Shown here: positions 3,005-49,598 of the stretch, in pieces
Numbering within the stretch: the stretch's first letter is position 1
Layout of the letters: every line of letters starts with the position of its first letter
Origin: Halorubrum californiense DSM 19288
Lineage (GTDB): Archaea > Halobacteriota > Halobacteria > Halobacteriales > Haloferacaceae
Direction: 5' to 3'
Assembly (NCBI RefSeq): GCF_000336875.1
Contig: NZ_AOJK01000041.1
Span: 71,920-135,919, forward strand
DNA length: 64,000 nucleotides
The notes under the pieces: generated by a model
Told to the model about the DNA's origin: nothing
Database searches by the model: none
What the model saw: the letters and a program-made list of their open reading frames with translations, nothing else
Made by a program: the position numbers and the translations under genes

Positions 3005-3012
3005 TTTATAAA
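3005..3012 (+). promoter_or_regulatory. TATA box before structured repeat copy A
   Basis: A perfect TTTATAAA lies 30 nt before the first conserved base of the repeat at 3043, placing a predicted transcription start near 3035. The octamer is its own reverse complement, so it could also serve the divergent glycerate kinase gene (start near 2980). Copy C has the same octamer at nearly the same spacing. Confidence 0.6.
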
Positions 3013-3042
3013 TGCGTACTAGCGATCCCGCGGCGAACACTG

Positions 3043-3344
3043 CCAAAGCCCCAGCCGCGACGGCTCGGTGCGCTCGCTGCGGTCCTCGTCGTTCTCCTCG
3101 CTCACTCCTGCGGTCCTTGCGTCGCGCGCCTTCGCCCTCGCGGCTGCCCCTTTGAGTCCCACCCACCGCAACCGCACCGCAGCCTCACGCCTCCCCAGCC
3201 TCGTCGGTGGTCCTCCGCTTCGCTCCGGACCACCGACTCCAGCGAGAATCGAAGATTCTCTGGCAGCCGGCGCGTAGCGCCGGCGACCTCGCGCGTGCTC
3301 CTCGCGGCCACCGGTGGCGGCCGCTCGCAGGCACGCGCCACCGC
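3043..3344 (+). repeat. Dispersed structured repeat, copy A (candidate non-coding RNA)
   Basis: This fills most of the gene-free stretch 2991-3437. The 5' block CCAAAGCCCCAGCCGCGA (3043-3060) pairs with TCGCGGCTGCCCCTTTGAG (3138-3156). AAAG pairs with CTTT and CAGCCGCGA with TCGCGGCTG, around a CCC/CCC internal loop. A second hairpin at 3203-3237 has an 11-bp arm GTCGGTGGTCC/GGACCACCGAC and a loop containing CGCTTCGC. The 3' hairpin is closed by GCGCGTGC/GCACGCGC (3291-3338) and ends in the conserved CACGCGCCACCGC, followed by a T-tract at 3350-3355 that could terminate transcription. Related copies lie at 35200-35549, 47338-47640 and 49351-49598. The frames inside it are not shared between copies, so it is very unlikely to be protein-coding. 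Confidence 0.85.
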
Positions 3345-35016: not shown

Positions 35017-35098
35017 GCCAGGATGGCCGAGTGGTAAGGCGCACGCCTGGAAAGCGTGTTCCCATCCGGGATCGGGGGTTCAAATCCCTCTCCTGGCG
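35017..35098 (+). tRNA. tRNA-Ser (GGA)
   Basis: An 82-nt class II tRNA. The acceptor stem GCCAGGA pairs with TCCTGGC, and G73 is the discriminator. The anticodon loop CTGGAAA (35047-35053) has anticodon GGA at 35049-35051. A long variable arm (TCCCATCCGGGA) identifies it as serine-type, with D and T arms intact. CCA is not encoded, in line with the CCA-adding enzyme at 58126. It has no intron. Confidence 0.95.
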
Positions 35099-35199
35099 TT
35101 TTGCTGTCGCAATAACGAGCGAGGAGCGACGGCGACGAACGGCTTCAGAGTTCCAACCGCCCGGTGATACGTGAACGTCCACTGAGCGACGACGAACAC

Positions 35200-35549
35200 C
35201 TCCAAAGCCCCAGCCGCGAGGCGGGCGCACGCTCGCTGCGCTCCTCATTCGGTCGCTGCCGCTCCCTCGTTGCGGTGCTTACATCGCCTGCGCCCGCCTC
35301 GCGGCTGCCCCTTTGAGTCCCGCCCCGACAGCACCGCAACCGCCGGAAGACGGTCCTGCTCGCTCCTTCCAGTCGCTGCGCGGGCTGCGACTTCCGTGCT
35401 CCCGCTCGCTCCCTTCGGTCGCTCGCGGGACCGCACCTCACACCTCCCCAGCCTCGTCAGTCGCCTCCGCTTCGCTCCGGTTACTGACTCCCCCGCGCGT
35501 GCTGACTCGCGGCCGCCGGAGGCGGCCGCTCGCAGGCACGCGCCACCGC
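35200..35549 (+). repeat. Dispersed structured repeat, copy B (candidate non-coding RNA)
   Basis: The longest copy (350 nt) in a 590-nt gene-free stretch between tRNA-Ser and a small gene. The 5' block CTCCAAAGCCCCAG opens a stem in which CCGCGAGGCGGGCGCA pairs perfectly with TGCGCCCGCCTCGCGG. The stem closes through CTGCCCCTTTGAG at 35307-35319. An extra module at about 35340-35432, shared only with copy C, adds a CGGAAG/CTTCCG hairpin. The second common hairpin is GTCAGT/ACTGAC around CGCTTCGC. The 3' hairpin GCGGCCGCC/GGCGGCCGC is closed by GCGCGTGC/GCACGCGC. No strong TATA lies upstream (GTGATACG at 35164-35171 is weak). Confidence 0.85.
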
Positions 35550-35962: not shown

Positions 35963-38560
35963 ATGAGTCGCGGCCCCGAGCTGATAATCACGGAGAAGGA
36001 CAACGCGGCGCGGCGCATCGCCGACATCCTGAGCGGCGAGTCCGCGACCGCGGAGCGGATGAACGACGTCAACGTCTACGAGTGGGGCGGCAAGCGGTGT
36101 ATCGGGCTCTCCGGCCACGTCGTCGGCGTCGACTTCCCCGCCGAGTACAACGACTGGCGCGACGTCGAGCCGGTCGAGCTGATCGACGCGCCCGTCACCA
36201 AGACGCCGACGCAGGAGGGGATCGTCGCCGCGCTGCGCCGGCTCGCCCGCAACGCCTCCCGCGTCGTCATCGCGACCGACTACGACCGCGAGGGCGAACT
36301 GATCGGCAAGGAGGCGTACGAACTCGTCCGCGAGGTGAACGAGGACGTCCCCGTCGACCGCGTGCGCTTCTCCTCGATCACGGAGAACGAGGTACAGGAG
36401 GCGTTCGCGAACCCCGACGACCTCGACTTCGAGCTGGCGGCCGCCGGCGAGGCGCGACAGATCATCGACCTCACGTGGGGCGCGGCGCTCACTCGCTTCC
36501 TCTCCCTGTCCGCGCGCCAGCGCGGCGACGACTTCATCTCCGTCGGCCGGGTCCAGGGGCCGACGCTCAAGCTCATCGTCGACCGCGAGCGCGAGATACA
36601 GGCGTTCGACCCCGAGTCCTTCTGGGAGCTGACGGGCGAGCTGGCGAAGTCGGGCGGCGATCCGTTCGAGGCGCGCTACTTCTACCTGAACGACGAGGGC
36701 AACGAGCGCGAGCGCGTCTGGGACGAGGCGGTCGCCGAGACGCTCGCGGATGCGCTCGACGCGGCCGACGGCGCCACGGTCGACGACGTCACCCGGCGGA
36801 CCCAGACCGACGACCCGCCGACGCCGTTCAACACCACCGCGTTCATCCGCGCGGCGGGGTCGCTCGGCTACTCCGCGCAGCGCGCCATGTCGCTTGCGGA
36901 GGACCTCTACACCGCCGGCTACGTCACCTACCCGCGGACCGACAACACGGTGTACCCGGAGGACTTGGAGCCCGAGGAGCTGATCGAGGAGCTCTCGGCG
37001 GCCTCGACGTTCGGGAAGGACGCCGCGAGCCTGCTCGACGGCGACCGCGATATCGAGCCGACCGAGGGCGACGAGGAGACGACGGACCACCCGCCGGTCC
37101 ACCCCACCGGCGAGCTCCCCTCGGCCGCCGACCTCTCCGACGACGAGTGGGAGGTGTACGAGCTGATCGTCCGCCGGTTCCTCGCCACCTGCGCCGACCC
37201 CGCGACGTGGGAGCGCCTGCGCGTCGTCGCGCTGGCGAACGGCGAGGCGACGCCAATCGCCGAGGGGGCCGACGGGCTGGCCGCCCTTCGTAATCCCGAC
37301 GACGCGGCGGGGGCGGCCGACCTCGTCGCGGACGGCGGCCTGCGGCTGAAGGCGAACGGGAAGCGGCTGCTGGAGGCCGGCTACCACGACGTCTACCCGT
37401 ACCGCTCCAGCGACGAGCGGATCGTGCCGGACGTCGAGGTCGGCGAGACGCTGTCGCTGTCCGACCGCACTACCGAGGGGAAGGAGACCCAACCCCCGCG
37501 GCGCTACGGACAGTCCCGGCTCATCGAGGAGATGGAGAAGCGGCAGCTGGGGACGAAGGCGACCCGCCACCGCACCATCGAGAAGCTGTACGACCGCAAC
37601 TACGTCGAGAGCGACCCGCCGCGCCCCACGCGGCTCGCCGAGGCGGTCGTCGAGGCCGCCGAGGAGTTCGCCGACCGGATCGTGAGCGAGGAGATGACCG
37701 CCCAGCTCGAACGGGATATGGCGGCCATCGCGGCCGGCGAGAAGGAGTACGACGAGGTGACCGAGGCCTCGCGCGACCTGCTCTCGCGCGTGTTCGACGA
37801 CCTCACGGAGTCGCGCGAGGCGGTGGGCGACCACCTCCAGAGCTCGCTGAAGGCGGACAAGACCCTCGGCCCGTGTCCCGAGTGCGGCGCCGACCTCCTC
37901 GTCCGCAAGTCGCGGCAGGGGTCGTACTTCGTCGGCTGCGACGGGTACCCGGACTGCGAGTACACCCTCCCGCTCCCGTCGACCGGGAAGCCGCTCCTCT
38001 TGGACGAGACCTGCGAGGAGCACGACCTCCGCCACGTGAAGATGCTCGCCGGCCGGAAGACGTTCGTCCACGGCTGCCCGCAGTGTAAGGCGGACGAGGC
38101 CGACGAACAGGAGGACGAAGTGATCGGGACGTGTCCCGACTGCGGGGCGGAACACGGGGGCGAACTCGCGGTCAAGCGCCTCCGCTCCGGCTCCCGGCTC
38201 GTCGGCTGTACGCGCTACCCGGACTGCGACTACTCGCTGCCGCTCCCCCGGCGCGGCGAGATAGAGATCACCGACGAGACCTGCGAGGAGCACGACCTCC
38301 CGCACCTCCGGGTCCACTCCGGCGACGAGCCGTGGGAGCTCGGCTGCCCGATCTGTAACTACCGCGAGTTCACGGCCCGACAGGAGGGCTCGGAGCTTCA
38401 GGCGGTCGAGGGGATCGGCGAGAAGACCGCCGCGAAGCTGAAAGACGCCGGGGTCGACGGCGTCGACGAGCTCAAATCCGCCGACCCGAACGACATCGCG
38501 GCCGATGTCGACGGCGTGGGCGCGGACACGGTTCGCGACTGGCAGGCCAAGGCCGACTAA
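35963..38560 (+). CDS. topA: DNA topoisomerase I (type IA)
   Basis: An 865-residue enzyme that relaxes negative supercoils by cutting one strand and passing the other. The TOPRIM domain has ELIITEKDNAARRIADIL and VVIATDYDREGELIGKEAY. The catalytic tyrosine is in AGYVTYPRTDNTVYPEDLE. DLTWGAALTRFLSLSARQR and FISVGRVQGPTLKLIVDRE are typical. Three C-terminal zinc-binding segments follow (GPCPECGADLLVRKSRQG, GTCPDCGAEHGG, LGCPICNYRE). The last 45 residues form a helix-hairpin-helix (VEGIGEKTAAKLKDAGVDGV), a common archaeal addition. CTTTAGAC is centred about 29 nt upstream, supporting this start. Confidence 0.95.
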   Translation: MSRGPELIITEKDNAARRIADILSGESATAERMNDVNVYEWGGKRCIGLSGHVVGVDFPAEYNDWRDVEPVELIDAPVTKTPTQEGIVAALRRLARNASRVVIATDYDREGELIGKEAYELVREVNEDVPVDRVRFSSITENEVQEAFANPDDLDFELAAAGEARQIIDLTWGAALTRFLSLSARQRGDDFISVGRVQGPTLKLIVDREREIQAFDPESFWELTGELAKSGGDPFEARYFYLNDEGNERERVWDEAVAETLADALDAADGATVDDVTRRTQTDDPPTPFNTTAFIRAAGSLGYSAQRAMSLAEDLYTAGYVTYPRTDNTVYPEDLEPEELIEELSAASTFGKDAASLLDGDRDIEPTEGDEETTDHPPVHPTGELPSAADLSDDEWEVYELIVRRFLATCADPATWERLRVVALANGEATPIAEGADGLAALRNPDDAAGAADLVADGGLRLKANGKRLLEAGYHDVYPYRSSDERIVPDVEVGETLSLSDRTTEGKETQPPRRYGQSRLIEEMEKRQLGTKATRHRTIEKLYDRNYVESDPPRPTRLAEAVVEAAEEFADRIVSEEMTAQLERDMAAIAAGEKEYDEVTEASRDLLSRVFDDLTESREAVGDHLQSSLKADKTLGPCPECGADLLVRKSRQGSYFVGCDGYPDCEYTLPLPSTGKPLLLDETCEEHDLRHVKMLAGRKTFVHGCPQCKADEADEQEDEVIGTCPDCGAEHGGELAVKRLRSGSRLVGCTRYPDCDYSLPLPRRGEIEITDETCEEHDLPHLRVHSGDEPWELGCPICNYREFTARQEGSELQAVEGIGEKTAAKLKDAGVDGVDELKSADPNDIAADVDGVGADTVRDWQAKAD

Positions 38561-47337: not shown

Positions 47338-47640
47338 GCGGTGGCGCGTGCCGACGAGCGCCCGGAGGGCGCGAGGAGCACGCGCGAGGGAGTCGGTGGT
47401 CCGGAGCGAAGCGGAGGACCACCGACGAGGCTGGGGAGGCGTGAGGCTGCGGTCCGACGAGCGGAGCGAGCGGGAGCACGGAAGTCGCAGCCCGCGCAGC
47501 GAAGCGAGCAGGAACGTCTTCCGGCGTTGCTGTCCGGGCGGGACTCAAAGGGGCAGTCGCGAGGACGACGCAGGCGACGCAAGGGCCGCAAGGAGCGAGC
47601 GCAGCGAGCGTGCGTCGTCCTCGCGACTGGGGCTTTGGAG
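47338..47640 (-). repeat. Dispersed structured repeat, copy C (candidate non-coding RNA)
   Basis: A 303-nt copy read on the minus strand, filling most of the 504-nt gap between pheA and cysS. The 5' block CTCCAAAGCCCCAG leads into TCGCGAGGACGACGCA, which pairs exactly with TGCGTCGTCCTCGCGA and closes with CTGCCCCTTTGAG. The extra CGGAAG/CTTCCG module shared with copy B spans about 47453-47528. The second hairpin is identical in sequence to that of copy A (GTCGGTGGTCC arms). The 3' hairpin is GCGCCC-TCC-GGGCGC, closed by GCGCGTGC/GCACGCGC. A TTTATAAA box lies 28 nt before the first conserved base. A TATATAAA also lies just beyond the 3' end at 47318-47325. Confidence 0.85.
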
Positions 47641-47668
47641 GCGTTCTCTCCTGATCCGTCGGCAGCTG

Positions 47669-47676
47669 TTTATAAA
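47669..47676 (-). promoter_or_regulatory. TATA box before structured repeat copy C
   Basis: A perfect TTTATAAA 28 nt upstream of the conserved CTCCAAAG block, predicting transcription from near 47646. The spacing in copy A is 30 nt. Confidence 0.6.
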
Positions 47677-49253: not shown

Positions 49254-49350
49254 TACGACGTGGTTGCCGAGGTGAGCGTTTCAAATCGTCGGATCTAACA
49301 AGACGAGGAAGCTGTACCCGATCCGGTTGGGAATCGGTGGCGACGGGCAC

Positions 49351-49598
49351 CTCCAAAGCCCCAGTCGGGAGAGCGCCGTACGCTCGCTGCGCTCCTCACT
49401 CGGTCGCTCCGCTCCCTCGTTTCGGTGCTTACGTCGCCTACGGCGCTCTCCCAACTGCCCCTTTGAGTCCCGCCCCATCCGCACCGCACAGCAGCCTCAC
49501 GCCTCCCCAGCCTCGCCGCTCACGCCCTGCGGGCGTTCGCGGCGTCCCTCGCGCGTGCTGCTCGGCCGCGGTGCGGCCTCGCAGGCACGCGCCACCGC
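49351..49598 (+). repeat. Dispersed structured repeat, copy D (candidate non-coding RNA)
   Basis: The shortest copy (248 nt), in the 378-nt gap between cysS and ilvA and divergent from cysS. The 5' block CTCCAAAGCCCCAG leads into TCGGGAGAGCGCCGTA, which pairs with TACGGCGCTCTCCCA except for one mismatch and closes with CTGCCCCTTTGAG (49456-49468). It lacks the extra module of B and C. The second hairpin has entirely different arms (GCCGC and ACGCC with GGCGT and GCGGC) that still pair. The 3' hairpin is GGCCGC-GGT-GCGGCC with the common closing stem. No clear TATA precedes it. Confidence 0.82.

Follow-up and report, generated by a model that had tools for sequence, protein, structure and literature searches.

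The genome of Halorubrum californiense DSM 19288 (3.68 Mb, 83 contigs) harbors a repeat family whose hairpin stems vary in sequence from copy to copy yet stay complementary. Four intergenic copies (A–D) of this ~310–360 bp repeat lie within the 64-kb window, by which we mean the whole stretch of 64 000 nucleotides that was analyzed. The covariation of the stems is real, strong and genome-wide, and is more than the copying of a fixed element would give. On balance, with a probability of roughly 0.55, we consider the family to be an old, non-coding, chromosomal interspersed repeat of haloarchaea, the stems of which are kept complementary mainly by DNA-level re-copying of one arm from the other.

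Architecture of the repeat

All four copies share one block order, namely A5, a variable stem with its loop, A3, an optional insert, M, hairpin 2, G1, hairpin 3 and G2. The conserved blocks are A5 = CCAAAGCCCCAG, A3 = CTGCCCCTTTGAGTCCC, M = CCTCAC(A/G)CCTCCCCAGCCTCG, G1 = CTCGCGCGTGCT and G2 = GGCACGCGCCACCGC. The positions of the copies and of the parts of copy B are given in Table 1. When the fold of copy B was compared with those of 100 dinucleotide shuffles, it surpassed all 100 on either strand (z = –4.6 and –3.9).

Table 1. Copies of the repeat in the window, parts of copy B and genes flanking it
Feature	Position	Strand	Remarks
Copy A	3038–3344	+	Two additional perfect hairpins inside; TTTATAAA upstream, 3005–3012
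tRNA-Ser gene	35017–35098		Flanks copy B
Copy B	35196–35549	+	Between tRNA-Ser gene and topA
Copy B, block A5 (CCAAAGCCCCAG)	35202–35213	+	Outer stem CAAAG, CCC side of the 3×3 internal loop, CAG
Copy B, variable first stem, 5΄ arm	35214–35229	+	
Copy B, first-stem loop	35230–35288	+	A-poor on +, purine-rich on –
Copy B, variable first stem, 3΄ arm	35289–35304	+	
Copy B, block A3 (CTGCCCCTTTGAGTCCC)	35305–35321	+	
Copy B, optional insert	35322–35435	+	Contains further hairpins
Copy B, conserved block M (CCTCACACCTCCCCAGCCTC)	35436–35455	+	
Copy B, second hairpin (GTCAGT...ACTGAC)	35456–35488	+	Arms 35456–35461 with 35483–35488
Copy B, closing stem	35492–35549	+	GCGCGTGC (35495–35502) with GCACGCGC (35536–35543); encloses third hairpin
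Copy B, third hairpin	35509–35529	+	Arms 35509–35517 with 35521–35529
topA	35963–38560		Flanks copy B
Copy C	47338–47643	–	TTTATAAA upstream, 47669–47676
Copy D	49348–49598	+	

Some parts of the repeat have counterparts elsewhere. Sequences similar to the insert of copy B (about 77–88% identity) occur in many further haloarchaeal genera, in part outside the repeat (for example, at eight loci). Double-hairpin modules, which are optional and differ in sequence, occur inside loops and stems of the repeat (window positions 3240–3290 and four further loci). In some Halorubrum species, RNase P RNA also has one or two additional near-perfect hairpins at a single place (alignment columns 135–275; seven loci), and these resemble the extra hairpins inside the repeats.

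Distribution among haloarchaea

When up to two mismatches were allowed, block A3 matched 91 times in the source genome and 194 and 152 times in two relatives; the reversed A3 pattern, used as a control, gave 0–2 matches per strand. The block was matched in 52 of the 52 genomes of the genus sampled, and the named matches to it were nearly all from Halorubrum. The spread of the family is order-wide: its core hairpin (AAAGCCCC-N70–100-GCCCCTTTNAGTCCCRCCC) was found in 98 of 195 haloarchaeal genomes and in 33 of 66 genera, with no match of the reversed core pattern in the same genomes. In another genus, the interior is different: a conserved ATAT/ATAG loop is surrounded by two stems that covary. 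The family accordingly occurs in half of the haloarchaeal genomes sampled, and its 90–190 copies of ~330 bp occupy ~1–2% of a Halorubrum genome.

A viral or plasmid element was considered and rejected, with no matches among phage records or viral contigs and three plasmid records matching in part. Apart from tRNAs, neither the window nor copy B gave an Rfam match above chance. Literature searched by words and by sequence, with subscription journals and preprints outside its range, yielded no description of the repeat or its sequence. As far as that search reached, the family is apparently undescribed, and the present work would put a name to it.

Covariation between paired arms

We compared pairing within copies with that of rearranged arms. 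Among 132 distinct arm pairs, within-copy pairing covered 11.6 of 16 positions, compared with 8.4 when arms were dealt to other copies (permutation sd 0.15, an excess of ~21 permutation sd) and 5.2 when letters were shuffled within an arm. Across 294 distinct copies, all 16 pairs of stem 1 were complementary beyond shuffled partners (z = 8–21 per pair), although these cell counts are inflated by shared ancestry, the copies being related by descent and not independent; two invariant outer pairs are uninformative on covariation. The outer stem covaries as well (CAAAG/CTTTG, CGAAG/CTTCG and GAAAG/CTTTC), as does the CAG/CTG position (CAA/TTG and CGG/CCG). Class I comprised 185 of the 294 distinct copies, and about one third formed a second class, like copy A, in which the inner stem is unpaired in simple register.

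Because shared ancestry inflates the counts of copies, we placed orthologues at one site on the tree of the flanking gene and counted changes by parsimony. There were 31 both-arm versus 2 one-arm changes at the topA site (copy B), and 56 versus 10 at the site of copy D. A sequence-only reading of the window had described stems that vary and remain paired, had noted an imperfect first stem in copy A and had argued that simple copying of a mobile element would not produce this pattern. The arms that it quoted are present, the imperfect one of copy A included, and the covariation that it described holds at the scale of the genome.

Marks of probable copying between arms

Covariation of this kind does not establish selection on RNA, because the two arms of a palindrome can undergo template switching, which yields the same matched double changes and whose footprints are present here. 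Published footprints of the process are multiple compensatory changes, inversion of the loop and insertion in a stem half (PMC8794818). The further proposal of the sequence-only reading, that selection on RNA structure produced the pattern, is only partly supported.

A direct pattern search of the arms showed 12 copies in which a one-base stem insertion (G, A or T) was matched by its complement in the opposite arm, and 1 copy with an insertion on one side alone. In ~15 of 339 copies, from the source genome and from other species, the loop was inverted while A5 and A3 on either side stayed fixed, and inverted loops also occurred in other genera (e.g. locus L445); two copies, L157 and L022, have arms in common and loops in opposite orientation. 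Copies with loops at least 97% identical had stems that differed by 94 both-arm versus 14 one-arm changes. Transversions were at least as frequent as transitions among these both-arm changes (54 versus 40). GU cells accounted for 0.6% in class-I stems versus 3.6% in the RNase P RNA of the same genus. Stem mismatches did not climb as the blocks decayed (rho = 0.07, P = 0.19), and copies with decayed blocks were paired as well as intact ones. The CCC/CCC internal loop had turned into CCC/GGG in two copies. Orthologous copies A in related species carry unrelated stems, and whole-hairpin exchange between copies therefore probably also occurs.

The matched stems are most simply explained by DNA arm copying in an element whose blocks, and perhaps whose reverse strand, are under selection. 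The conserved blocks A5, A3, M, G1 and G2 would frame hairpins whose stems drift freely in sequence; one arm would be re-copied from the other, through template switching during replication or conversion within the palindrome, and sometimes a whole hairpin would be swapped with another copy. Selection would then act on the blocks rather than on the stem sequences, in favor of mobility or a host function. We infer this account from counts over copies and orthologues. The strand bias of the mismatches (see below) is unexpected from neutral copying alone, and one-arm states would also be few if purifying selection on pairing had been strong over long times.

Possible folding strand and conserved C-tracts

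Mismatches in six sets, including one from another genus, fell into 42 GT versus 127 AC cells as written, a bias in which two positions dominate and whose weight is limited by the kinship of the copies. By set, the GT:AC counts were 26:52 for stem 1 together with its outer pairs, 8:47 for the closing stem, 3:7 for hairpin 2, 0:3 for hairpin 3 and 5:18 for the independent set from another genus. The 127:42 bias corresponds to GU wobbles favoring the reverse strand (101:16 in the RNase P control), and wobbles are rare in the repeat. Loops on the reverse strand contain 29% A, 40% G and 5% T, and the positions left unpaired in RNase P RNA are similarly poor in T and rich in A. Four C-tracts, which are G-tracts on the reverse strand, are each found in 96–98% of copies, the third and fourth being separated by one variable base.

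Because of the wobble bias, the purine-rich loops and the four regularly spaced G-tracts, the folding strand, if there is any single one, is more likely the reverse strand, opposite to the one followed in the sequence-only reading. The 3×3 CCC/CCC loop and the 1-nt C-tract spacing are conserved inside or beside the hairpins, which argues that the fold or the blocks are selected in some way. One improbable candidate suggested by the tract pattern is an order-wide folded nucleic acid on the reverse strand, in the form of a G-quadruplex closed by a hairpin (GGG-N1-GGG-N7-GGGG-hairpin-GGGG). High internal potassium would favor such a fold, and, on this equally improbable extension, only the pairing of the hairpin would matter, so that its sequence would be free.

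In Halorubrum, a TATA-like TTTATAAA box lies ~37 nt before A5 in many copies, oriented to drive the + strand, and a further TTTATAAA box follows G2. A + strand RNA with a TATA promoter was rejected: the mismatch bias favors the other strand, and the upstream box is absent in the other genus examined. Some copies (four loci) are preceded by tandem units of 55–57 bp comprising an A5-like block, often a TATA-like box, and GAACACC; some of these units are identical and thus recently expanded.

Presence and absence at orthologous sites

Copy D occupies the same place and orientation in most of 30 species, and copy C in about half. Copy B is present in most of the 18 nearest species; of about 15 close species, 5 have copy A. 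Filled and empty orthologous sites exist, for example L204 against L205, L206 and L211, but no clean target-site duplication was readable, the intergenic flanks being too diverged. Related species have one or more repeats of the 3΄ end of the tRNA-Ser gene in the interval that separates the tRNA from the repeat (window positions 35077–35141; five loci), and these repeated ends look like attachment-site scars of integrative elements.

Alternative explanations

A structured RNA family transcribed from the reverse strand, with stems held by compensatory evolution and single-stranded blocks serving as binding or catalytic parts, would account for base pairs that covary beyond chance, for a mismatch bias that fits reverse-strand GU in stem 1, the closing stem and the other genus alike, for purine-rich and U-poor loops resembling the unpaired positions of RNase P, and for an internal loop and linkers fixed across the order. 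We nevertheless regard it as rather unlikely, in view of the rarity of wobbles, the loops that invert without visible decay, the mirrored stem insertions and the decayed copies whose stems remain equally well paired. It likewise lacks an Rfam match, and the TATA-like box of Halorubrum would drive the opposite strand.

The hairpins might instead act as DNA. Sites such as attC and the ends of IS200/IS605 provide a model for hairpins that are recognized by shape, and a non-autonomous mobile element whose single-stranded fold or cruciform is read by a transposase, recombinase or nucleoid protein would explain why conserved blocks adjoin hairpins conserved in shape. Such an element would also fit the presence and absence of copies at orthologous sites and their neutral orientation between genes (77 same-sense versus 76 opposite in tandem settings). 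This possibility remains doubtful, however: besides the want of a clean target-site duplication, no autonomous relative, sought as M or G2 lying far downstream of A3, and no encoded protein were found within the loci, and three genomes (G001, G028 and G149) carry the repeat with no match to the Y1 transposase (PF01797), which speaks against that enzyme as a requirement. The same even split of tandem settings rules against an intrinsic terminator with a fixed downstream orientation. GC-rich hairpins in intergenic DNA and a slight overrepresentation between convergent genes (86 of the 280 copies placed, versus 20% of all gene pairs) could point to a transcription terminator or an mRNA 3΄ element of the neighboring genes, but with tandem copies showing no orientation bias and 41 copies sitting between divergent genes, we consider this role highly improbable.

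Comparison with known systems

In integron attC sites, structure is kept while the stem sequence varies, and a single-strand fold carries fixed flanking motifs. The haloarchaeal repeat may be likened to them in all of these respects; unlike attC sites, its copies are dispersed, and no cassette arrays were seen. Rfam structured RNA families combine covarying helices with conserved linkers, as the repeat does, although no Rfam model matches it. Haloarchaeal MITEs resemble the repeat in being small, non-coding, multicopy and present or absent at intergenic sites, whereas no terminal inverted repeats or target-site duplications were readable for the repeat at filled and empty sites with diverged flanks, and it has three internal hairpins and fixed blocks instead.

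REP units are conserved in sequence. Together with BIMEs and their RAYT (Y1) transposases, they share with the repeat a palindromic, interspersed and intergenic nature, many copies and composite modules. However, PMC3733652 gives REP units as 20–40 bp, and the haloarchaeal unit exceeds 300 bp and has hypervariable stems. Because some repeat-bearing genomes are without any Y1 match, a dependence of the REP/RAYT kind is disfavored.

The closest likeness in mode of change is to template-switch hairpins (Monttinen and Löytynoja 2022, PMC8794818), which show the same multi-position compensatory changes, inverted loops and stem-half insertions. The three marks of that process, namely few one-arm intermediates (31:2 and 56:10), loop inversion and mirrored insertions, were all found in the repeat. 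The published cases concern rRNA and microRNA genes, whereas here the hairpins belong to an archaeal repeat that is non-coding, dispersed and present in hundreds of copies. If our reading is correct, DNA copying inside dispersed repeats can generate in bulk the covariation that serves as standard proof of a working RNA structure, and the family would provide a natural test set, each genus offering hundreds of paralogues and orthologues.
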